The position numbers were made by a program, and so were the translations under genes. Source: Serinicoccus sediminis (GTDB lineage Bacteria; Actinomycetota; Actinomycetes; Actinomycetales; Dermatophilaceae). Taken from it: DNA of 64,000 nt. Shown here piece after piece: positions 32,239-50,932 of this stretch. The stretch spans positions 124,001 to 188,000 of the forward strand of contig NZ_SDVA01000005.1 in NCBI RefSeq assembly GCF_004153545.1, written 5' to 3'. The stretch's first letter is position 1, and each line of letters opens with the position of its first letter. The notes beneath the pieces are model-generated. The model did not search any database. It saw nothing but the letters and a program-made list of their open reading frames with translations, and was not told where the DNA came from.

Positions 32239-33204
32239 TCACGACAGGTTCCCGGACAGGGCCGTGCGGGCGGCCTCGCGCACCGCGTCGACGAGGGCCG
32301 CCGGCTCGACGACCCGGACTCCCCCGCCCTCGCGCAGCACGAGCCGCAGGAGCCAGCGGGGGTCGGCGACCCGCAGCACCATCCGCACGGAGCCGTCGTC
32401 GCGCGTCTCGACCTCCTCGGCCGGGATCTGCTCGGCGACCCACGCAGAGCCGGTGTCGAGGTCGAGGGTGACGGCCTGGTCCTCAGGGTCCGGGCGGTAG
32501 ACCCCGGTGCCGACGGCACGCTCGGGCAGGTCCTCCGGAGGGGTGGCCGGCACGTCGAGCACCTCGGCGGCCTCGATCCGGTCGAGCCGGAAGAGGCGCA
32601 CGCCCTGGGCGCGGTGGCACCAGCCCTCGAGGTACCACCGGCCGTCCACCGACAGCGCCCGCAGCGGGTCGACGTCGCGCTCGGTGGTCTCGTCGCGGCT
32701 CCCGGAGGTGTAGCGCAGGTGCAGCCGGCGCCGCTCGGTGAGCCCGGCGCGGATGGTCGCCGCGATGCCGTCGTCGGCGGGCTGCTCGAGGTCGACGCGC
32801 ACCGCGGCCGCCGCCCGCGCGGTCTCACCGGCGGCGGTCTCCAGCTTGGCCAGTGCCCGGTCGATGGCGTCCCGCTCGGCCAGGCCCGGGGTGTCGGCGA
32901 GCGCGCGGAGCGCCACGATGAGCGCCAGGGCCTCGTCGCGCCCCAGGCGCAGCGGCCGGGCGATGGTGTCGGCGTTGCCCACGAAGACCCGACCGCCCTC
33001 CCAGGACGCCTCGATGAGGTCGTCCGGGTAGTGACCGGGCAGGCCGCAGAGGAAGAGCACCTGCAGGTCCTCCACGACCTGGCTCTCGCTCACCCCGAGC
33101 TCCGCGGCGGCCGTGGCCAGGTCGATGCCCTGGCGGTGCAGCAGCCACGGCACCATGGTCAGCATCCGGGCCACCCGGGAGGTGGCGCTCTCGTAGGTCG
33201 CCAT
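32239..33204 (-). CDS. pafC: WYL-domain transcriptional regulator PafC
   Basis: A 321-residue protein. The N-terminal winged helix (RVARMLTMVPWLLHRQGIDLATAAAELGVSESQVVEDLQVLFLCGLPG) is followed by a WYL domain whose core reads VDGRWYLEGWCHRAQGVRLFRLDRI, and then a WCX domain. With PafB it forms the heterodimer that activates the LexA-independent DNA-damage response in mycobacteria. Start ATG overlaps the pafB stop by one base, so the two are co-translated. Despite the name they are not part of pupylation chemistry. Confidence 0.93.
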   Translation of the reverse strand: MATYESATSRVARMLTMVPWLLHRQGIDLATAAAELGVSESQVVEDLQVLFLCGLPGHYPDDLIEASWEGGRVFVGNADTIARPLRLGRDEALALIVALRALADTPGLAERDAIDRALAKLETAAGETARAAAAVRVDLEQPADDGIAATIRAGLTERRRLHLRYTSGSRDETTERDVDPLRALSVDGRWYLEGWCHRAQGVRLFRLDRIEAAEVLDVPATPPEDLPERAVGTGVYRPDPEDQAVTLDLDTGSAWVAEQIPAEEVETRDDGSVRMVLRVADPRWLLRLVLREGGGVRVVEPAALVDAVREAARTALSGNLS

Positions 33205-34220
33205 CAGGCCGCTCCCCCCCCGTGCGCAGCGAGCACCGCGCGCAGCCGCCCGGCGACCCGCTCGGCCAGCTCGGCGGGTGCCTCGACGCGCACGTCCGGT
33301 CCGGCGGCGCAGACCTCGCGGGCCAGTGGCGCGAGCGAGGCCACGTCGAGCTCCAGCCGCGACCAGCCCTCGGGGACGTCGGCGCCCTCCGTGCTCTCGC
33401 GGCCCCGCCGCCGCAGCGAGGCGGCCGCGCCGTCGCGCACCAGCAGGCGGACGGTCGTCGACCGCTCGCCGTCCTCCCCGGCGCTGCGCCGGATCATGGC
33501 GAGCGCGTCGAGGTCGTCGGGCACGGCATACCCCCCGGGCCGGCCGGAGCGCTCCGGGATGCCGACGACCCGGTCCAGCCGGAAGACGCGGGGTGCCTCG
33601 CGGTCGAGGTCGTGGGCGGTGAGGTACCACCGGCCGTGCCAGCTCGTGAGCCCCCACGGCTGCACCCGGCGCCGTGCGAGGTCCCCGGAGCCGCCGCGGT
33701 AGTCGAAGCTGATCGCGCACCGCTCCAGCACCGCGTCGCGGACCGGCTCGAAGGCGGGGTCGGGGGTGTGCAGCAGCGGCTCGATCCCGGCGACCGAGGA
33801 CTCGTCGCGCACCACCCCGGCGGCGTCCAGCTTGCGCAGCGCCTGCGCGGCCGGGCCGGCGAGGCTCGCCTGGCCCCAGGCCCGCGCCGCCAGCCCGAGC
33901 ACCGCGAGCTCGTCCGGGGCGAAGTCGATCTCGGGCAGCGCGTACTCGCGCTGGTCGATGCGGTATCCCGGCTCGTCGTCGAAGAAGGCGTCGATCGGCT
34001 CGGTGCGCAGCGGGATCCCCAGGGCGCGCAGCTCGTCCTTGTCGCGCTCGAACATCCGCTCGAAGGCCTCGGGGCTGCTCCGGGCGTAGTCCGGGACCGC
34101 CTGGCGCAGCTTGGCCCGGCTCAGCGGCTGCCGGGTGTGCAGGAGGGCGATGACGAGGTTGAGCAGCCGCTCCGTCTTCGCCGCGGCCGGGCTCGGACCC
34201 GCGCCTGTGCTCTTCGCCAT
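33204..34220 (-). CDS. pafB: WYL-domain transcriptional regulator PafB
   Basis: A 338-residue paralogue of PafC with the same order: winged helix (KTERLLNLVIALLHTRQPLSRAKLRQAVPDY), WYL core (WHGRWYLTAHDLDREAPRVFRLDRV) and WCX tail. The DNA-damage role is known for the mycobacterial pair and inferred here. TAGCCT 7 nt before the ATG marks the start of the pafBC unit. Confidence 0.93.
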   Translation of the reverse strand: MAKSTGAGPSPAAAKTERLLNLVIALLHTRQPLSRAKLRQAVPDYARSSPEAFERMFERDKDELRALGIPLRTEPIDAFFDDEPGYRIDQREYALPEIDFAPDELAVLGLAARAWGQASLAGPAAQALRKLDAAGVVRDESSVAGIEPLLHTPDPAFEPVRDAVLERCAISFDYRGGSGDLARRRVQPWGLTSWHGRWYLTAHDLDREAPRVFRLDRVVGIPERSGRPGGYAVPDDLDALAMIRRSAGEDGERSTTVRLLVRDGAAASLRRRGRESTEGADVPEGWSRLELDVASLAPLAREVCAAGPDVRVEAPAELAERVAGRLRAVLAAHGGGAA

Positions 34221-40691: not shown

Positions 40692-42263
40692 TCAGACGTC
40701 CTCGCTGCTGAGCTCGGAGAGGAGCCCGGCGGCGTCGGTATGCCGGTCCAGCAGGTCGGCCACGGTGTCCCGGCGTCCGCCCGTCGGCTCCTCGACGCGG
40801 ACCCGTCGCAGCCGGCCGCGCCCGTCGACGAGGACCACGGAGTCCCACGAGGCGGCCCGCACTCCTCCGCCGGCGCCGTAGCGGCGGACCACCTCGCCGC
40901 GGAACCACGCCCGGGTGTCCTCGGGCGGGTGGGCGACGGCGTGCGCGATCTCGTCGTCGCCGACGAGGCGGTCGAGCCTCCCCGCGGCCCGCAGCCGGCG
41001 GGCGAGACCGCGGTCGGGGTCGAGGTCGTGCCACTGGATGTCCATGGCCGCCAGCCGGGGGTCGTCCCAGCCGGCCCCGGAGCGCTCGGAGAAGCGCTGC
41101 AGGAGCTGGTGCTTGGCCACCCACTCCACCTGCCCCGCCGCCTCGGAGGGGTCGCGGCGCAGGGTGTCGAGGACCTCGCGCCAGCGGCGCAGCACCGGCC
41201 CCGTCGGCTCCTCGGCCGGGTCGCCCCACGCCTCGTGCCCGGACACCGCCGCCTGCTCGGCCGCGTCCAGGTGCGCCTCGAGCAGGTCCAGCCCGGTGAG
41301 GTGGCGTCCGTCGGCCAGCTCGACGGTGGCCCGCAGGGTCGGGTCGTGGCTCACCTGCTGCGCGGCCGCGACGGGCCGGGCCAGCGCGAGGCCGTCGAGC
41401 AGGTGCGGGTGGGTCTCGACCACGCGCAGCACCGCCGAGAGCGACCCCAGCGCGAGGTAGGTCGTGACGTCGGCCATGGTCGCGTCGCCGACGATGACGT
41501 GCAGCCGCCGGTGCAGGTGCGGCGTGGCGTGCGGCTCGTCGCGGGTGTTGACGATGGGGCGGCGCAGGGTGGTCTCGAGACCGATCTCCGCCTCGAGGTA
41601 GTCGGCGCGCTGCGAGAGCTGGAAGCCGGGCCGCTCGCTGGCCTGACCCAGCCCCACCCGGCCGGCCCCGGCGATGACCGGGCGGGCCACGAGGAAGGGG
41701 ATGAGCGCGGCCGCCAGCCGGTCGAAGGGCACCGACCGCGGCACGAGGTAGTTCTCGTGGGTGCCGTAGGACGCTCCCTTGCCGTCCACGTTGTTCTTGT
41801 AGAGGCGGACCTCGAGGCCCTCCTCGGCCAGGGTGCGGACCGCCGCGAGCGCGACCTCCTCCCCCGCCCGGTCCCAGCGCACCGCCGCGAGCGGGCTCGT
41901 GACCTCGGGGCTGGAGTACTCCGGGTGGGCGTGGTCGACGTAGAACCGGGCCCCGTTGGAGAGCACCGAGGTGGCGATCGTCGGGTCCTCGACATCGGTG
42001 AGCTGGGAGCGGTGCGCCAGCGCGCGGGCCATCTCGAAGCCGCGCGCGTCGCGGAGGGGGGTCTCGTCGGCGTAGTCCCAGCCCGCGGCAGCGGGCAGCG
42101 CCGCCCCGGCGGGCGCGCCCGCGGCATACGCCCGGACCACCTGCCCCGAGAGCACCATGGGCGTGACCGGCTGCCCGGCGGCGTCCCGCTGGGTGCTGGT
42201 GATGCCGAGCTCGGTCTCGATCCCCATGACCCGCCCGACGCCCACGGGGGCGCTGCCGCTCAC
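40692..42263 (-). CDS. dop: Pup deamidase/depupylase Dop
   Basis: A 523-residue paralogue of PafA. VMGIETELGI, then the Dop-specific loop of about 50 residues (GQVVRAYAAGAP... to DARGFEMA), then ARFYVDHAHPEYSSPE with the catalytic Asp, KNNVDGKGASYGTHENYL and RRPIVNTRDEPHA. It deamidates Pup-Gln and removes Pup from substrates. The GTG start overlaps the stop of the upstream MFS-fusion gene (GTGA), so dop is translationally coupled to that transporter. Confidence 0.96.
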   Translation of the reverse strand: MSGSAPVGVGRVMGIETELGITSTQRDAAGQPVTPMVLSGQVVRAYAAGAPAGAALPAAAGWDYADETPLRDARGFEMARALAHRSQLTDVEDPTIATSVLSNGARFYVDHAHPEYSSPEVTSPLAAVRWDRAGEEVALAAVRTLAEEGLEVRLYKNNVDGKGASYGTHENYLVPRSVPFDRLAAALIPFLVARPVIAGAGRVGLGQASERPGFQLSQRADYLEAEIGLETTLRRPIVNTRDEPHATPHLHRRLHVIVGDATMADVTTYLALGSLSAVLRVVETHPHLLDGLALARPVAAAQQVSHDPTLRATVELADGRHLTGLDLLEAHLDAAEQAAVSGHEAWGDPAEEPTGPVLRRWREVLDTLRRDPSEAAGQVEWVAKHQLLQRFSERSGAGWDDPRLAAMDIQWHDLDPDRGLARRLRAAGRLDRLVGDDEIAHAVAHPPEDTRAWFRGEVVRRYGAGGGVRAASWDSVVLVDGRGRLRRVRVEEPTGGRRDTVADLLDRHTDAAGLLSELSSEDV

Positions 42264-44287
42264 GCGTCGACCCTCGGGCGCGGGACGCCGGTGACCATGT
42301 CGAGGTCGAGCGTCGTCGAGGTGGCCAGCACGGTGAGCGCGCGGGACCGGGTGCGGCCGGCGTCGTGGTCGACGGCGGTGAGCACGTAGCGGCCCGGGGG
42401 CGGCAGCCCGACCTCGTAGGCGCCGTCGGCGTCGGTGTGGGCGGTGGCGACGTACTCCCCGGAGTGCTTGATGAGCGAGACGAGCACGCCGCCGAGCGGG
42501 CGGCCGTCGTCCAGGACGTGCCCCGAGAGCAGCAGCCGCCGGGTCATCGTCACGTCCTCCTCGTGCCCGACGGCCAGGTCGACGAGGCACGACTGCGGCG
42601 CCCAGCCGTCCGCGGACACGACGAGCAGGTAGGCCCCCGGCTCGGGCAGCGCGAGGGTGTAGCGCCCGTCGTTGTCGGTGCGGCCCCAGTCGATGTGGGT
42701 GCCGTCGGGGCGCAGCACCGTGGTGACGGCCTGGCGCAGCGGCCGGCCCTGGGGCCCCACGACGCGCCCCCGCACGAGCAGCTCGGGCAGGTCACCCATC
42801 CCCGCGTGCTTGACCTCGGTGCGCTCCCCGGTCGCGGCCGCAGCGACGCCGGGCTCCTCGACCCGCACCCGCTGCGGACGCCGGATGAAGGCGGCGATGA
42901 GCCCGCCGCCGAGCGCGGCGGCGGCGCCGGCCCAGAAGACGAGCTGGTATGCCGCGAACGAGGGCGCCGGCACGCCGCTGGCGGTGGCGGTCATCGAGGC
43001 GGCGAAGACGGCCGCGACGAGCGCGGACGCCGAGGACGTGCCGATGGAGCGCAGCAGGGTGTTGAGCCCGTTGGCCGACGCGGTCTCGGTGATGGGCACC
43101 GCCCGCATGATGAGCGTGGGCATGGCCGCGAAGGCCAGGGCGGTGCCGAGCGAGGCGACGCTCGCGGTGACGACCACCTCGAGGACGCTGCCGTGCAGCA
43201 GCGAGCGTCCGACGAAGCCCAGGGCGATGGTCACCGCGCCGGCGATGAGGACGGCCCGGGCGCCGTGCCGGCGGATGAGGCCGGCGGACACCGGCGACAT
43301 CGCCACCATGAGCAGCCCGCCGGGCAGCAGGACCAGGCCGGTGGACACCACGGACAGGCCGAAGCCGTAGCCGGTGTCGGCCGGCATCTGCACCTGCTGG
43401 GCGGAGGTGAGGAAGTTGGCGAACATCGCGAAGCCGACGAGGACCGAGGCCGCGTTGGTGAGCAGCACCGTGCGCCGCATCGACGTGCGGATGTCGACCA
43501 GCGGCTGCCCGGTGCGCAGCTCCCAGGGGACCCACGCGGCGAGCACCAGCCCCGCCCCGGTCAGCAGGCTCAGGGTCAGCGGCGACCCCCACCCCCAGGT
43601 GCCGGCCTTGCTCACCGCCAGCAGGAAGCAGGTGAGCGCCACCGACAGCAGCGCGGCGCCGGCGTAGTCGAAGCGGCCCCGCGTCCTGACCGTCGACTCC
43701 GGCACGACGAGGTAGACCGCGACGAGCATGACCACGGCGAACCCGCCGGAGACGTAGAACAGGGCGTGCCAGTCGAGGTTGTCGTAGATGACGCCGGCCA
43801 GCGGCATACCGATCGCCCCACCGATGCCCAGCGTCGCCGACATGAGCGCGACGCCGGACCCGACCCGGTCGGCCGGCAGGTGGTCGCGCATGATGCTGAT
43901 CCCCACGGGCACCAGGCAGGCGCCGAGACCGCTCAGCCCGCGGCCGAGCACCACCAGCGCGAACTCCGAGCTCAGCGCCGAGACCACCGACCCGGCGATG
44001 ACGGCCCACATGCAGACGATGAGCAGCAGCCGCTTGCCGAACATGTCGGCCAGGCGGGACACGATGGGGGTGCCGACGGCGGCGGTGAGCAGCGTCACCG
44101 TCACCAGCCAGGAGGCGTTGTCGCTGGTCGTCCCGAGGATCTCCGGGAAGACCGGCAGCAGCGGCAGGACGAGCGTCTGCTGCAGCGAGACGAGGGTGCC
44201 GCAGAGCGACAGGACGACGATGATCGCCGTGGTGGGGGTGCCGGGTGCGGACGCCGTCGTGGTCTTCTCGTCCGCCCCAGCCGTCAT
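42260..44287 (-). CDS. MFS transporter fused to two carboxypeptidase-regulatory-like domains
   Basis: A 675-residue protein. Residues about 18-475 are a 14-helix DHA2-type drug:H+ antiporter (LVTVTLLTAAVGTPIVSRLADMFGKR and GRGLSGLGACLVPVGISIMRD are its loop 2-3 and motif C regions). Residues about 505-590 and 590-668 are two tandem Ig-like CarboxypepD_reg repeats, each with a GRYTLALPEPGAYLLVV / GAYEVGLPPPGRYVLTA signature. By topology they should be cytosolic. The gene is inserted between arc and dop and coupled to dop by a GTGA overlap. Its link to pupylation is unknown. Confidence 0.85.
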   Translation of the reverse strand: MTAGADEKTTTASAPGTPTTAIIVVLSLCGTLVSLQQTLVLPLLPVFPEILGTTSDNASWLVTVTLLTAAVGTPIVSRLADMFGKRLLLIVCMWAVIAGSVVSALSSEFALVVLGRGLSGLGACLVPVGISIMRDHLPADRVGSGVALMSATLGIGGAIGMPLAGVIYDNLDWHALFYVSGGFAVVMLVAVYLVVPESTVRTRGRFDYAGAALLSVALTCFLLAVSKAGTWGWGSPLTLSLLTGAGLVLAAWVPWELRTGQPLVDIRTSMRRTVLLTNAASVLVGFAMFANFLTSAQQVQMPADTGYGFGLSVVSTGLVLLPGGLLMVAMSPVSAGLIRRHGARAVLIAGAVTIALGFVGRSLLHGSVLEVVVTASVASLGTALAFAAMPTLIMRAVPITETASANGLNTLLRSIGTSSASALVAAVFAASMTATASGVPAPSFAAYQLVFWAGAAAALGGGLIAAFIRRPQRVRVEEPGVAAAATGERTEVKHAGMGDLPELLVRGRVVGPQGRPLRQAVTTVLRPDGTHIDWGRTDNDGRYTLALPEPGAYLLVVSADGWAPQSCLVDLAVGHEEDVTMTRRLLLSGHVLDDGRPLGGVLVSLIKHSGEYVATAHTDADGAYEVGLPPPGRYVLTAVDHDAGRTRSRALTVLATSTTLDLDMVTGVPRPRVDA

Positions 44288-44300
44288 GCCTCAGACCCTA
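44288..44300 (-). promoter_or_regulatory. Leaderless -10 element for the MFS fusion-dop unit
   Basis: TAGGGT, 7 nt, ATG at 44287. It lies inside the last codons of the DUF3054 gene. Confidence 0.55.
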
Positions 44301-44632
44301 CGCCTGCCCACCGACAGCGCTTGCACGAGCGCCCGCCACCCCAGGGCGCCGCCCACGAGGACGACCGCGGCCACGACGACGAAGGCCGGCGCCGTGCCGG
44401 CCCCGGTCAGGACCCGCAGCAGCATCCCCACCGCCAGCGCGAGCCCGCCGACCGCCAGACCCTCCACCCACCAGCGCCGCGCGCGCCAGGTGAGCATCCA
44501 CCCCACGGCCATGCCGACGGCGAAGGGCCACGCGGTCTGCAGCACCCCGAGCGGCGTGAGGCCCAGCTCGTGGCTGGACCGCCCGGCCACCGCGAAGACG
44601 AGGAGCAGCAGCAGGTCGCCGAGGCGGTGCAC
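44291..44632 (-). CDS. DUF3054 family membrane protein
   Basis: A 113-residue protein with four hydrophobic helices. AGRSSHELGLTPLGVLQTAWPFAVGMAVGWMLT carries the DUF3054 GRxSH and WPF patches, and GALGWRALVQALSVGRRR closes the family core. Function unknown. The GTG start follows the arc stop by 5 nt, so it is the last gene of the trmI-arc unit. Confidence 0.8.
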   Translation of the reverse strand: MHRLGDLLLLLVFAVAGRSSHELGLTPLGVLQTAWPFAVGMAVGWMLTWRARRWWVEGLAVGGLALAVGMLLRVLTGAGTAPAFVVVAAVVLVGGALGWRALVQALSVGRRRV

Positions 44633-44637
44633 GCCGC

Positions 44638-46278
44638 TCAGCGCTCCCCGAGGTCGACCGAGCGGCCCGGCTGGGTGCCGGAGGCGTCCCCCACGAGGGT
44701 GCGGATGTAGGTGATCCGCTCCCCCTTCTTGCCCGACACCCGGGCCCAGTCGTCCGGGTTGGTGGTGTTGGGCAGGTCCTCGTTCTCCTTGAACTCGTCG
44801 AGGTAGGCCTGCTCCAGGTGCCGCTCGCGCAGCCCGTGCTCCCCGAGCGTCAGGGAGTCCTTGATCGCGAGCTTCTTGGCGCGGTCGACGATGTTGTGCA
44901 CCATCGCCCCGGAGGCGAAGTCGCGGAAGTAGAGCACCTCCCGGTCCCCCCCGGCGTAGGTGACCTCGAGGAAGGCGTTGGCCGGGGACACGGCATACAT
45001 CCGCTCGACGACGCCGTCGATGAGGGCGGCGACGGTCGCGGCGCGGTCGCCGTCGTGCGCCTGCAGCGCGGTGTCGTGCAGCGGTATGCCGGGGGTGAGG
45101 TACTTGGAGAAGATGTCGCGGGCGCCCTGCGCGTCGGGCCGCTCGATCTTGATCTTCACGTCGAGGCGGCCCGGTCGCAGGATGGCCGGGTCGATCATGT
45201 CCTCGCGGTTGGACGCACCGATGACGATGACGTTGTCCAGCCGCTCCACCCCGTCGATCTCGGCGAGCAGCTGCGGCACGATCGTGGTCTCGACGTCCGA
45301 GGACACCCCGGAGCCGCGGGTGCGGAAGAGCGACTCCATCTCGTCGAAGAACACGACCACCGGGTCGCCCTCGGCCGACTTCTCCCGCGCCCGCTGGAAG
45401 ATGAGCCGGATGTGCCGCTCGGTCTCACCGACGTACTTGTTGAGCAGCTCGGGGCCCTTGATGTTGAGGAAGTAGCTGCGCGCGCTCCCGGGCGCCAGGC
45501 CCCGCTGCTCGGCCGCCTGCCGGGCCAGCGAGGCGGCCACCGCCTTGGCGATGAGCGTCTTCCCGCACCCGGGCGGCCCGTAGAGCAGCACCCCCTTGGG
45601 CGGCCGCAGGTCGTGGGCGGCGTAGAGGTCGGCGTGCAGGAACGGCAGCTCGACGGCGTCCCGGATCTGCTCGATCTGGCCCGTGAGGCCGCCGATGTCG
45701 GCGTAGGAGATGTCCGGCACCTCCTCGAGCATGAGCTCGGTGACCTCGGGCCGCTCGATGCGCTCGGTGACGAAGCCGCTGCGCGGGTCCAGCAGCAGCG
45801 CGTCGCCCACCCGGACCGCGGCGTCGGCGAGCGAGCCGGCGCGCCGGGCGATGCGCTCGTCCTCGCCCCGCACGAGCACGCTGAGCCGGCCGTCCTCGAG
45901 CACCTCCTTGCAGGTGACGACGTCCCCGGCCCGCTCGTAGTCGGCCACCCCGACGATGGCCTGCGCCTCGTTGAGGAGCACCTCCCGGCCGGGCCGGAGG
46001 TCGCCGGTGTCGACCTCCGAGGAGATCTGGGTGCGGATGCGCCGCCCGGACAGGGAGACGTCCGCGGTGCCGTCACCGACGACCCGGAGCACCTGGCCCA
46101 TGGCCAGCGGCGGCGACGCGAGGGCGTCGAGGTCCTCGCGGAGCCCGACGATCTGCTGCTTGGCGCTGCGCAGCGTGGTCGTGAGCGCGTCGTTCTGCCC
46201 CTTGAGCTCGCTCACCCGGCTGCTGAGCGACTGCACCTGCTGCTCGAGGTGACGCTCGCGCGAGGACGTCTCGGTCAT
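44638..46278 (-). CDS. arc: AAA+ ATPase ARC (Mpa), without proteasome-docking tail
   Basis: A 546-residue protein. An N-terminal coiled coil (about 5-50) binds Pup, two OB folds follow (about 55-190), then an AAA+ module with Walker A GPPGCGKT, Walker [10 protein letters not shown] and the arginine-finger segment [19 protein letters not shown]. Mycobacterial Mpa ends in the GQYL (HbYX-like) motif that opens the 20S gate; this protein ends VDLGER. With prcBA also missing from the locus, it probably unfolds pupylated proteins without proteasomal degradation. ATGA overlap with trmI. Confidence 0.95.
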
Positions 46279-47297
46279 CCCTGCTCCTCCGGGTCGGGTC
46301 CGTCACCGGTCACCCGGTCGGCGGTGCTCTGCGCGTCGCGGCGGGTGCGCCGCAGCTTCTTGTCCGAGACCGGGCGCTCCCCCAGGTCCGCCGGGGTCCA
46401 CTCCCCGCTGGCCGGCTCGTAGTCCTCGCCGTAGGCGCCGGGGGCGGGACGCGTGCGGCGCAGGTGCGCCTGGGTGTCCGGCGCGAGCCGGCGCAGCGTC
46501 ACCAGGAAGCCGGTGTGCCCGTGCATCCGGTGCTCGGGGCGCACCGCCAGGCCCTCCAGGTGCCAGCCGCGGTTCATCGACTCCCACGCCTGCGGCGGCG
46601 TCCAGCCGCCGGCGGCCTTGGCCGCCTCGGCCACCCGGGACAGCTGGGTGGTGGTGGCGACGTAGCAGATGAGCACGCCCCCGGGGGCGAGCGCGTCGGC
46701 CACCACCCCGAGGCAGTCCCACGGCGCCAGCATGTCGAGGACGACCCGGTCGACGGTGCCCGGCTCGACCGCCTCCGGCAGCGCGTCGACGAGGTCGCCG
46801 ACGGTGACCGTCCAGGCCGGGTGGTCCAGCCCGAAGAACGCCCGGGCGTTCGCGCGGGCGATGTCGGCGAAGTCCTCGCGGCGCTCGAAGCTCAGCAGCC
46901 GGCCCTGCTCCCCCACCGCGCGGAGCAGCGACAGCGACAGCGCGCCCGAGCCGACCCCGGCCTCGACGACGGTCGCGCCCGGGAAGATGTCGGCGTAGGT
47001 GACGATCTGGCCGGCGTCCTTGGGGTAGACGACCTGCGCCCCCCGGGGCATCGACAGGACGAAGTCGGACAGCAGCGGCCGCAGCGCGAGGTAGTCGGTG
47101 CCCGAGGTGTGCCGGACCACCGAGCCGTCGGCCGCGCCGATGAGGTCGTCGTGCCGCAGGTGCCCGCGGTGGGTGTGGAACTCCTTGCCCGGCTCCAGGG
47201 TGATGGTGTGCAGGCGGCCCTTGGGGTCGGTCAGCTGCACGCGGTCGCCCGCCCGGAAGGGTCCGCGCCGCATGTCGGCGCCCGTCGGCCTGCTCAT
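46275..47297 (-). CDS. trmI: tRNA (adenine-58-N1)-methyltransferase TrmI
   Basis: A 340-residue protein. [42 protein letters not shown] is the N-terminal beta domain. [22 protein letters not shown] is the SAM site and [15 protein letters not shown] holds the catalytic Asp motif. The C-terminal tail of about 50 residues is charged and proline-rich. It methylates A58 in tRNA T-loops. It heads the trmI-arc-DUF3054 unit, the same neighbours as in mycobacteria. Confidence 0.95.
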
Positions 47298-47309
47298 CGG
47301 GTCAGTCTA
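47298..47309 (-). promoter_or_regulatory. Leaderless -10 element for trmI-arc
   Basis: TAGACT, 6 nt, ATG at 47297. Confidence 0.6.
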
Positions 47310-48407
47310 CGAGCGGCTGCCGGTGAGGTCGTGGGTGCTCACCACGCCCCACGGCCGACCGTGCTCGTCCAGCAGCGCGACCACGCCGGAGCCGCTGCGG
47401 CGCATCACCTCGATGACCTGGTCGAGCCGGGCCTGCGGCGACATCGGCACCGCCCAGCCGTCCGGCAGCCGGACGGCCACCGCGGCGGCGGGGGTGGTCG
47501 TCCACGCCTCCCGGGGGACCTGCCGCAGCGCGGGCGGGTCCACCAGACCGTCCGGGCGGCCGTCGGCGTCGAGCACCACCCACACCGGGTGCTCGGCCCA
47601 CGGCACGGTGTGCAGCGGCGCGTCCACGCCGACGAGACCCGGGCGGTGCGCGGTGTCGGCGACGGTGCGCCGCGAGGCGCGCATCCCCTGACGGCCCATG
47701 CGGGTGGCCTGGCTGGCGCCCTGCCACAGGAAGAGCCCGATGAGGGCCACCCAGGCCACCCGGGTCCAGGGCACCTGGTCGCCCGCCAGCAGCGGGGGCA
47801 GCAGCAGCACGACCGCCACGAGCACGACGACCAGCCGCCCCGACCACCCGGCCACCATCGTGCCGAGGTGCCGGTTGCCGGTCACGCCCCAGACCAGCGC
47901 CTCCAGCAGGTACCCGCCGTCCAGGGGCAGGCCCGGGACGAGGTTGAAGACCGCCACGAACGAGTTGGCCCAGGTGAAGGCATACGCCAGCAGCAGGGGG
48001 ACGCCTGTGCCGTCCAGGACGCCCATGGCCCACCACCCGAGCAGGGCGAGCAGCCCGTTGGCGAGCGGCCCCACGACGGCCACCGCGGCACTGCGGGCGG
48101 GGGTGCCGCCGGCGCCGTCGTGCGCGGTGTGGCCACCCCAGAAGTCCGCGACGATGCGCGAGACCCCGAAGCCGACGCCCTGCGCGACGAGCGCGTGCGC
48201 CGCCTCGTGCACCAGCACCGACACCAGCAGGAGGAGCACGAAGGCCAACGCCACCGCGTAGCTCCAGGCGCCCAGGCCGGGCAGGGTGCGGTCCACCGTC
48301 GGCCCGAACAGCGCGATCATGAGCACGGCCACGAGCACCCAGCTGCGGCCGAGGTAGATCGGGATGCCGGACAGGGTGCCGACCTGCCAGCCGGGTGCTC
48401 GCTCCAT
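47307..48407 (-). CDS. Site-2 protease (M50B, Rip-like) with CBS-like domain
   Basis: A 366-residue membrane metalloprotease. VLVHEAAHALVAQGVGFGVSRI contains the HExxH-type zinc motif (HEAAH) and FNLVPGLPLDGGYLLEALVW the second zinc-ligand NPxPxDG-like motif. After six helices a C-terminal soluble part has CBS-like sequence (VIEVMRRSGSGVVALLDEHGRPWGVVSTHDL). Such proteases cleave membrane anti-sigma factors. Substrate unknown. It is divergent from the RecB-like gene through overlapping -10 elements. Confidence 0.9.
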   Translation of the reverse strand: MERAPGWQVGTLSGIPIYLGRSWVLVAVLMIALFGPTVDRTLPGLGAWSYAVALAFVLLLLVSVLVHEAAHALVAQGVGFGVSRIVADFWGGHTAHDGAGGTPARSAAVAVVGPLANGLLALLGWWAMGVLDGTGVPLLLAYAFTWANSFVAVFNLVPGLPLDGGYLLEALVWGVTGNRHLGTMVAGWSGRLVVVLVAVVLLLPPLLAGDQVPWTRVAWVALIGLFLWQGASQATRMGRQGMRASRRTVADTAHRPGLVGVDAPLHTVPWAEHPVWVVLDADGRPDGLVDPPALRQVPREAWTTTPAAAVAVRLPDGWAVPMSPQARLDQVIEVMRRSGSGVVALLDEHGRPWGVVSTHDLTGSRS

Positions 48408-48431
48408 GCCCCCGAGCGTAGAGTGCGGCCC
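48408..48431. promoter_or_regulatory. Compact divergent leaderless promoter pair
   Basis: On the + strand TAGAGT at 48419-48424, 7 nt, ATG at 48432. On the - strand TACGCT at 48420-48415, 7 nt, ATG at 48407. The two -10 hexamers share the TA at 48419-48420, so only one polymerase could open this 24-bp gap at a time. Confidence 0.6.
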
Positions 48432-49259
48432 ATGGAGGCGGTCACCGAGCACCACGCCCGGGCCCTGTCCCCCTCGCGGGCCGCGGACTTCATGGCGTGC
48501 CCGCTGCTCTACCGCTTCCGGGTCGTCGACCGGCTCCCGGAACCGCCGAGCGCCGCCGCGGCCCGCGGCAGCCTGGTGCACGCCGTGCTGGACCGCCTCT
48601 TCGACCTGCCGCCCGGCCACCGCACCCTGGCGGCGGCGACCGACCTCGTGCCGGGTGAGTGGGAGCGCCTGCGCTCGGCCGACCCGGGCCTGGCCGGGCT
48701 GCTCGAGGAGGAGGCCTGCGGCGGCGCCGACGAGCTGCTGCGCAGCTGGTTCGCGCTGGAGGACCCCACCCGGCTGCACCCGGCCGAGCGTGAGCTCTAC
48801 GTCGAGGCCGACCTCGACGGCCTGGTCATCCGCGGCTACGTGGACCGGCTCGACGAGGCCCCCGACGGGCGCCTGCGGGTGGTCGACTACAAGACCGGGC
48901 GGGCCCCGTCGGAGACCTTCGAGGGACGGGCGCTCTTCCAGCTGAAGTTCTACGCCCTGGCGCTGTGGCGCAGCCGGGGGGTCATGCCCACCCGCCTGCA
49001 GCTGGTCTACCTGCGGGACCGGACCGTGCTGTGGATCGACCCGACGGAGGCCGAGCTGCTCGCCACCGAGCGCAAGATCCAGGCGCTCTGGGCCGCCATC
49101 GAGCAGGTGGCGACCACCGGCGACTGGCGCCCACGTCCGGGACGCGCGTGCTCGTGGTGCGCCCACCGGCCGGTCTGCCCGGCCTGGGGCGGCACTCCCC
49201 CGCCGCTGCCGGAAGGGGCCACCGCGCTCGCCCTGGACCCGCGCTCAGCCGCGGGGTGA
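48432..49259 (+). CDS. RecB-like PD-(D/E)XK exonuclease
   Basis: A 275-residue Cas4/AddB-type nuclease domain. ALSPSRAADFMACPLLYRFRVVDRLPEP begins with the first Fe-S Cys. GSLVHAVLDRLF has the motif I His, VIRGYVDRLDEAPDGRLRVVDYKTGR is the D...(D/E)xK core, and FQLKFYALALWRSRG is motif QxxxY. CSWCAHRPVCPAW supplies the remaining three cluster cysteines. Stand-alone homologues sit beside trmI in mycobacteria as well. Its 3' end overlaps the PAC2 gene stop by 15 bp. Confidence 0.92.
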   Translation: MEAVTEHHARALSPSRAADFMACPLLYRFRVVDRLPEPPSAAAARGSLVHAVLDRLFDLPPGHRTLAAATDLVPGEWERLRSADPGLAGLLEEEACGGADELLRSWFALEDPTRLHPAERELYVEADLDGLVIRGYVDRLDEAPDGRLRVVDYKTGRAPSETFEGRALFQLKFYALALWRSRGVMPTRLQLVYLRDRTVLWIDPTEAELLATERKIQALWAAIEQVATTGDWRPRPGRACSWCAHRPVCPAWGGTPPPLPEGATALALDPRSAAG

Positions 49260-50162: not shown

Positions 50163-50168
50163 CACCCT
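50163..50168 (-). promoter_or_regulatory. -10 element for the PAC2 gene
   Basis: TAGGGT on the - strand. No start codon lies 6-7 nt downstream, so this transcript should have a leader of about 50 nt, unlike its neighbours. Confidence 0.4.
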
Positions 50169-50181
50169 AGTCCGCGTCCTC

Positions 50182-50194
50182 TAGCGTGGTGCGG
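50182..50194 (+). promoter_or_regulatory. Leaderless -10 element for the HAD gene
   Basis: TAGCGT, 7 nt, GTG at 50195. Confidence 0.55.
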
Positions 50195-50932
50195 GTGACG
50201 CGCCAACCCGCCCGCCCGGGCCACCCCGACCTGCCCGCCGCCGTGCTCTGGGACATGGACGGCACCATCGTGGACACCGAGCCGTCGTGGATCGCCGAGG
50301 AGTACGTCCTGGTCGAGGAGGCGGGCGGCACCTGGACCGACGCCGACGCCCACGACCTCGTCGGGCAGGACCTCCTGACCTCGGCCGGCATCATCCTCGA
50401 GCGCACGCCGGTGCGGGGCCGGCCCGAGCAGGTGGTGCGCCGCCTGCTCGCCGGCGTGGTCCGGCGCACCCGCGCCCACGTCCCCTGGCGCCCCGGTGCC
50501 CGGGAGCTGCTGGCCGACCTGCGCGGGCACGGGGTGCCCTGCGCCCTCGTGACCATGTCCTGGACCGAGCTGGCCGAGGTCCTCGTGGAGCAGCTGCCGC
50601 CCGGGACCTTCGACGCCGTCGTGACCGGCGACCAGGTCAGCCGGGGCAAGCCGCACCCGGAGGCCTACCTCGAGGCGGCGGCCCGGCTGGGCGTGGACCC
50701 GGCCCAGGCGCTGGCGGTGGAGGACTCCCCCACCGGGGCCACCGCGTCGACGGCCGCCGGGGTGCCCACTCTCGTCGTGCCGCACACCGTGGCGGTGCCC
50801 GCTCTCCGGGGCAGCCTGCAGGTGCCGAGCCTCGAGGGCCTGACCCCGGCCGACCTCGGGGCGGTGGCCCGCTCGCTCAGCTCAGACCTGCACCCCGAGC
50901 AGCGCGTCGACGGCGTCCGCGACCAGGCGTGA
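50195..50932 (+). CDS. HAD-family phosphatase (beta-phosphoglucomutase-like)
   Basis: A 245-residue haloacid dehalogenase-fold hydrolase. Motif I is [14 protein letters not shown] (nucleophile and acid/base Asp), motif [10 protein letters not shown], motif [15 protein letters not shown] and motif [12 protein letters not shown]. The four-helix cap (about 30-95) marks subfamily IA. Substrate unknown. Its last 51 bp overlap the 3' end of the convergent mshC gene. Confidence 0.9.

Follow-up and report, generated by a model that had tools for sequence, protein, structure and literature searches.

Bidirectional promoters are an already known kind of bacterial promoter, and a paper of 2021 is reportedly the founding work on them. 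Such promoters start transcription on opposite strands around a common -10 region, where the two directions exclude each other sterically (PMC12825309, PMC10268837), and they are defined by divergent transcription start sites (TSSs) 7 to 25 bp apart (PMC10268837); values of 18, 10 and 23 bp occur often and depend on how far the -10 element lies from the start (PMC12825309, PMC10268837). The csoR-cueA divergon of Bradyrhizobium liaoningense, likewise with overlapping divergent -10 elements, was also termed a bidirectional promoter; csoR is leaderless by 5' RACE, cueA has a leader of 42 nt, and a CsoR box lies over the -10 boxes (PMC5057107). Leaderless promoters of Mycobacterium tuberculosis carry a TANNNT -10 element and no conserved -35 element (PMC3898074). 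In Actinobacteria, a further class of promoters answers to DNA damage independently of RecA through PafBC, whose motif is TGTCGG-10xN-TA-3xN-T with the variants TGTCAG and TGTCAC (PMC8151990); of its two proteins, PafB is the one that engages the -26 motif and PafC the one in contact with sigma domain 4 (PMC11804915). M. tuberculosis deleted for recA overexpresses rv2119, putatively encoding a recB-like exonuclease, under mitomycin C, and the accessible text states no dependence on PafBC (PMC8151990); we found no mention of Rv2119 in the accessible text of PMC5656591.

We analysed a 64,000-nucleotide stretch of the Serinicoccus sediminis genome (hereafter, the window), in which a site-2 protease (S2P) gene and a RecB-like nuclease gene diverge from a short gap. 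This gap looks like a bidirectional promoter, with overlapping opposite-strand -10 elements kept in all nine genomes that have this layout (called fused below). It would share with the described bidirectional promoters the opposite-strand starts around a common -10 region and the expected steric exclusion; it differs in that its predicted starts are 24 to 25 positions apart, in that it would serve two leaderless mRNAs of conserved genes, and in that comparison with relatives reveals two promoters becoming one. In Escherichia coli, the 23-bp class corresponds to a shared-TA layout whose spacers are shorter, as calculated from the published distances (PMC12825309, PMC10268837). Unlike the csoR-cueA divergon, where one gene is leaderless and where the accessible text describes no fusion history or regulator loss, the fused gap would have two leaderless genes. 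The gap has TANNNT without a conserved -35 element, as in M. tuberculosis, and the accessible account of those promoters does not describe one TA step common to two leaderless genes. Unfused relatives place the RecB-like gene behind TGTC(A/G)G-N10-TANNNT and so share the PafBC motif, whereas the window promoter lacks the -26 part and hence is not a member of that class. In the literature searched, which included few subscription papers, we found no precedent for two leaderless genes sharing a TA step, PMC5057107 being the nearest case, nor for recurrence of the arrangement, its origin at TA steps or loss of a PafBC element by fusion. We hold, with good confidence, that the gap is a fused symmetric housekeeping promoter, arisen by deletion between TA steps, that has lost PafBC control and is no bistable toggle.

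The shared gap and its conservation

The S2P start codon reads as CAT on the forward strand at 48405-48407 and the ATG of the RecB-like gene lies at 48432-48434, leaving a gap of 24 bp (48408-48431), which is the separation that a sequence-only reading of this DNA had given. The same reading held that both -10 hexamers share one TA, and TAGAGT and TACGCT do overlap, at T48419-A48420 only; its two gene identities agree with the Peptidase_M50 and PDDEXK_1 matches (Table 1). The C-terminal part of S2P is CBS-like, with a CBS match slightly under the cut-off. Both genes have TANNNT at the distance of about 6 to 8 nt from the start codon that marks leaderless promoters. We found no consensus sigma-70 -35/-10 pair in 47900-48900; a terminator near the gap was not found in that interval either.

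Table 1. Features of the fused gap and its surroundings, in window coordinates
Feature	Position	Strand	Basis or remark
-10 element of RecB-like gene, TAGAGT	48419..48424	+	7 nt before ATG; invariant in 9/9 fused genomes
-10 element of S2P gene, TACGCT	48420-48415	-	7 nt before ATG
TA step common to both -10 elements	48419..48420	both	sequence inspection
Equivalent place of PafBC -26 element	48403..48408	+	TCCATG in window; includes S2P start codon
RecB-like PD-(D/E)XK nuclease gene	48432..49259	+	PDDEXK_1, E 8.4e-40; putative leaderless ATG at 48432
Site-2 protease (S2P) gene	47307..48407	-	Peptidase_M50, E 5.8e-13; putative leaderless ATG at 48407
TrmI-like tRNA methyltransferase	46275..47297	-	PF14801 + PF08704
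Proteasome ATPase gene (arc/mpa)	44638..46278	-	TIGR03689 pup_AAA over cut-off
pafB candidate	33204..34220	-	WYL + WCX domains
pafC	32239..33720	-	HTH_PafC (PF19187, E 4.2e-41), WYL, WCX; true start inside open frame

The RecB-like nuclease is presumably a member of the Rv2119 family, which its domain and neighbourhood fit. A Pup-proteasome region lies within about 16 kb to the left, with the genes for the proteasome ATPase and the TrmI-like methyltransferase, two genes of the Pup_ligase family, and the pafB/pafC pair. An MFS transporter gene (42260-44287, minus strand), situated between the ATPase gene and the Pup-ligase genes, is preceded by a PafBC-type promoter, TGTCGG-N10-TAGGGT-N7-ATG at 44285-44316 (minus strand), which suggests that this transporter is damage-induced.

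We sought the RecB-like protein in 58 genomes, of which 55 gave a match and 50 an orthologue locus that was read, leaving out the three without a match and G022, G040, G046, G048 and G055, whose matches were weak and paralogue-like. An S2P orthologue adjoins the RecB-like gene in 43 of these 50 loci, window included; in the other seven no S2P neighbour was detected. Conservation of the spacing in relatives, which the sequence-only reading had proposed as a check, holds in part: the gap is 23 to 24 bp in 9 of the 50 loci, again with the window included, all from Serinicoccus and close kin (among them S. chungangensis, S. kebangsaanensis and two uncultured Serinicoccus), but at the remaining loci with an S2P neighbour the two genes stand further apart and in most cases have a leaderless-type promoter each. 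The spacer between the S2P -10 element and its ATG is 6 nt in the eight fused relatives versus 7 nt in the window, so that the starts, if both RNAs are leaderless, would be 24 positions apart in the former and 25 in the latter. One fused genome, G007, has GTG as the nuclease start codon. All 12 bases of AGCGTAGAGTGC are the same across the nine fused genomes, and the flanking bases of the gap vary. We ruled out a chance overlap of the boxes because these 12 bases are conserved while codons 1 to 250 of both genes keep only 24 of 167 four-fold degenerate sites invariant, and the recurrence counts given below point the same way.

The distance from TANNNT to the start codon was counted more widely, in 130 loci across Actinomycetes that became 120 unique loci once 10 identical around the start had been dropped, with one locus able to score at more than one distance. 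For the RecB-like gene, TANNNT stands 6, 7 and 8 nt before the start in 16, 69 and 33 of the 120 unique loci, and for S2P in 42, 44 and 6 of 104 loci. Other distances from 0 to 40 nt gave 0 to 4 loci, the exceptions being 22 and 23 nt for the RecB-like gene (18 and 8 loci) and 1 nt for S2P (12 loci). Because this distance is fixed across the family, leaderless expression of both genes is likely to be the family rule. We infer that the gap is a single symmetric housekeeping promoter, ANNNTANNNT, which RNA polymerase would bind either way round, initiating at the A of either ATG to give two leaderless mRNAs, S2P leftwards and the RecB-like nuclease rightwards; the two proteins would then be expressed together from one promoter.

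An 8-nt inverted repeat, GGTGCTCG/CGAGCACC (48394-48401 and 48446-48453), lies in both coding regions, nearly centred on the fused promoter, and no other inverted repeat was found in 48340-48500. Judged by eye, L004, L006, L007 and L008 have the whole repeat and L009-L012 a broken one; as it is not kept in these more distant fused genomes, we took it for coding chance.

PafBC control and a proposed route of fusion

In relatives, the region upstream of the RecB-like gene carries the published PafBC DNA-damage motif. Of 111 unfused unique loci, 94 have TGTC at the exact PafBC spacing, versus 0 of 9 fused ones, and at other spacings from 5 to 17 nt it stands in 0 to 2 unfused loci; the full TGTC(A/G)G is found at the PafBC spacing in 52 of the 111 and at other spacings in 0 to 1. 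With the looser NGTC(A/G)G the 10-nt spacing gave 56 unfused loci, yet the 16-nt spacing gave 13 as well. Among the 17 unfused loci scored without TGTC, eight carry CGTC at that place, L029 has TGTCGG and was skipped at a contig end, and some genuinely lack the element. In L014, from the sister group, the element is absent and no S2P gene adjoins. The PafBC layout and the fused layout are incompatible unless S2P is altered, because the -26 element would overlie the S2P start codon (Table 1).

The nine fused genomes form one nested clade, with support of 0.93 in the RecB-like tree and 0.99 in the S2P tree. Adjoining it are L013 and L016, both with TGTCAG and with promoters that are separate; in the RecB-like tree L014 groups with all of these. 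Since the fused clade is nested beside unfused L013 and L016, fusion is derived, and we rejected it as the ancestral state, the PafBC element being widespread outside the clade. In two more distant congeners, L018 and L020, TACGCT and TAGAGT are still separate, 26 and 40 bp from TA to TA, and each TA step carries a copy of a repeat, CGTA and CGTAG respectively; a deletion between these copies would yield the fused form. The nearest unfused relatives, L013 and L016, have only TA in common at the two steps, so that the ancestral sequence is uncertain and the case for the deletion route is indirect. (Automatic box calls misplaced the RecB-like -10 element in L030 and gave no S2P box for L017 and L025.)

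We propose that two leaderless promoters, originally separate, were brought together at their -10 TA steps by a deletion in the ancestor of Serinicoccus and its close kin, which preserved both -10 boxes and left no space for the PafBC -26 element. Because the fusion left no room for this element, the nuclease would have lost RecA-independent induction by DNA damage and become constitutive, probably at a low level; the fusion thus probably removed damage control from the RecB-like nuclease. The locus would then serve as a natural experiment: the regulator and its other motif sites stay, yet the repair nuclease has apparently been stripped of an ancient DNA-damage promoter. It would also illustrate a possible origin of two-way promoters.

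Loss of PafBC from the genome was ruled out by pafC and the pafB candidate in the window and by 25 sites of the form TGTC(A/G)G-N10-TANNNT-N5-8-(A/G)TG in this genome (reversed control, 0). Of these, 21 precede a frame of at least 40 aa, and the 20 such frames that we scanned for domains (L145 was left out) include polA-type exonuclease, UvrB, UvrA, RecR, HhH-GPD and RNase_T domains, along with transporters and metabolic enzymes, so that some of the sites may lack a function. Each of the nine fused genomes holds 25 to 38 such sites, and genomes across the genus 14 to 38, with 0 to 2 in the reversed control. As pafBC and the other motif sites remain, the loss of the -26 element looks specific to the RecB-like promoter.

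A different reading is that damage control was retained, by way of another regulator or of a PafBC site that is altered or lies at a distance. In three of the nine fused loci (L010-L012) there is a TGTC with 15 nt, rather than 10, between the end of its TGTCNN word and the -10 box, and M. tuberculosis occasionally has PafBC motifs downstream of the TSS (PMC8151990). This TGTC is 5 nt further out, inside S2P codons, a shift that would amount to about half a helical turn; within an interval reaching 600 bp upstream and 60 bp downstream of the RecB-like start, none of the nine fused loci has TGTC(A/G)G, and no LexA-like box (at most three mismatches) was found between 47426 and 48588. We consider retained control unlikely on this evidence and keep to the loss of induction.

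Several further observations concern the damage systems of these genomes. At G000:C86:25988-26103 (L156 and L157), a back-to-back pair of PafBC-type promoters is spaced by about 50 bp, one of them before an RNase_T-domain exonuclease and the other before a 23-aa frame, and back-to-back pairs of such sites also occur in G012, G027 and G028. At L145 and L146 (G000:C22), TTTGTTC, which we take to resemble a LexA half site, lies between the PafBC-type site and the start codon, hinting that these promoters may be under both damage systems. The window holds 50 LexA-like matches (at most three mismatches) versus a mean of 18.7 and a largest count of 32 in shuffles, an excess probably due to codon composition; the best of them, with one mismatch, lies at 34048-34063, inside the pafB candidate.

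Use of the two directions

We also considered that only one direction is a real promoter, the other TANNNT being incidental and its gene started from upstream, inside the neighbour. The -35 regions of both promoters lie inside coding sequence and no consensus sigma-70 pair accompanies them, as such a reading would allow. TANNNT nevertheless stands 6 to 8 nt before both genes in most relatives, including those with separate promoters, and both hexamers are invariant in the nine fused genomes, so that a one-way promoter seems to us quite improbable.

The sequence-only reading had argued that initiation in one direction must exclude the other, and in one sense it does: since the -10 boxes overlap, two polymerases cannot occupy the site at once and two open complexes cannot coexist (PMC12825309). 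Momentary exclusion is not a toggle, however, which takes two units that repress each other and have stable alternative states. In E. coli, the basal activity of bidirectional promoters is too low for synthesis of one RNA to affect the other, the five that were tested showing little competition at that level, and repression of the partner requires substantial activation of one side (PMC12825309); for the overlapping-box promoter of Bradyrhizobium the authors invoke polymerase competition under strong induction (PMC5057107). Competition between the directions at the fused gap is thus possible, and would on our reading be steric and arise only when one direction is strongly driven. The built-in toggle of the earlier reading, by which initiation one way would shut off the other and leave either protease or nuclease, finds a footing in the overlapping boxes and in the repression that strong activation of one direction can cause, yet is very improbable indeed given that the nine fused genomes all lack the PafBC -26 element, the one activator element known for the nuclease promoter, that there is no LexA-like box between 47426 and 48588 with up to three mismatches, that the only inverted repeat of 48340-48500 is not kept in the more distant fused genomes, that relatives run the two genes from separate promoters, and that the tested E. 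coli promoters hardly compete. Because the activator element is gone, we read the window promoter as probably constitutive in both directions.

Recurrence of the shared-TA geometry

The pattern CAT-N7-ANNNTANNNT-N7-ATG occurs at 29 sites in 31 genus genomes, with 0 in the reversed control. All 58 genomes together gave 39 sites versus 8 reversed, these controls being confined to four genomes outside the genus, and 118 genomes drawn from the class gave 41 versus 11, which makes the excess strongest in this genus. The 23-bp shared-TA form was found 31 times in the genus (control, 0). Boxes 0, 2 and 8 bp apart with 7-nt spacers were found at 0, 0 and 1 sites in the 31 genus genomes, although these separated-box patterns have 12 fixed bases versus 10 in the fused pattern and so a lower chance background; the arrangements tested were shared TA and distances of 0, 2 and 8 bp with fixed 7-nt spacers, plus the 6/7 shared-TA form.

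The 29 sites are not independent; sorted by gene content and matched sequence, they fall into about nine gene-pair groups, plus L171 and L175, which lack convincing genes. Domains support both genes of the S2P/RecB-like, HerA/VapB-like, DeoC/cupin, biotin ligase/carboxyl transferase and epimerase/nucleotidyl transferase pairs. The L250/L253 pair, whose genes we take to be manC and pyrD, is backed by homology on both sides; in two groups, L167 and L179, the gene on one side is doubtful, and both genes of the L170 pair rest on open frames only. The acylphosphatase/oxidoreductase and TetR/MFS pairs have the 23-bp form. Within this genome's own contigs, an L250-type pair (L254, 1900-1950 in G000:C77) appears fused, TAGACT and TAGGGT sharing a TA; such a pair would have one GTG start, because of which patterns with ATG on both sides undercount fusions.

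The DeoC/cupin pair was read in 17 of 29 matching genomes, leaving out G009 (a split match) and 11 weak matches; 11 of the 17 orthologues are fused and six unfused. Its inner bases vary (TTCT to GAGT, GATCC to GATCA) and the A/T positions of ANNNTANNNT are kept, the pattern expected from selection on both -10 boxes. The biotin-ligase/carboxyl-transferase pair shows the shared-TA fusion in L166 (G032) and L172 (G003); as these come from different genera of the family, the fusion must be old or have happened more than once.

TA is self-complementary and present in both -10 boxes, so that a deletion between TA steps would be the one shortening of a divergent gap that keeps both promoters; divergent pairs may thereby collapse repeatedly into the ANNNTANNNT geometry, which would account for its recurrence. 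We give about even chances to the broader proposal that fusion at TA steps is generally open to leaderless-rich genomes as a route of regulatory evolution, with loss of whatever activator site stood between the promoters, at this locus the DNA-damage element of a repair nuclease. If the deletion route is true, compact divergent pairs in such genomes should take a predictable form and should lose regulation with each fusion.

The next divergent pair in the window, at 50164-50197 (PAC2 on the minus strand, HAD on the plus strand), also has close -10-like boxes, and HAD may start at a GTG at 50195, 7 nt after TAGCGT, rather than at the listed 50186. We did not accept this pair as a second fusion, as its -10-like boxes have no common TA and the PAC2 start is ambiguous. 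The PAC2/HAD pair of genome G041 (L185) has the shared-TA 23-bp form.
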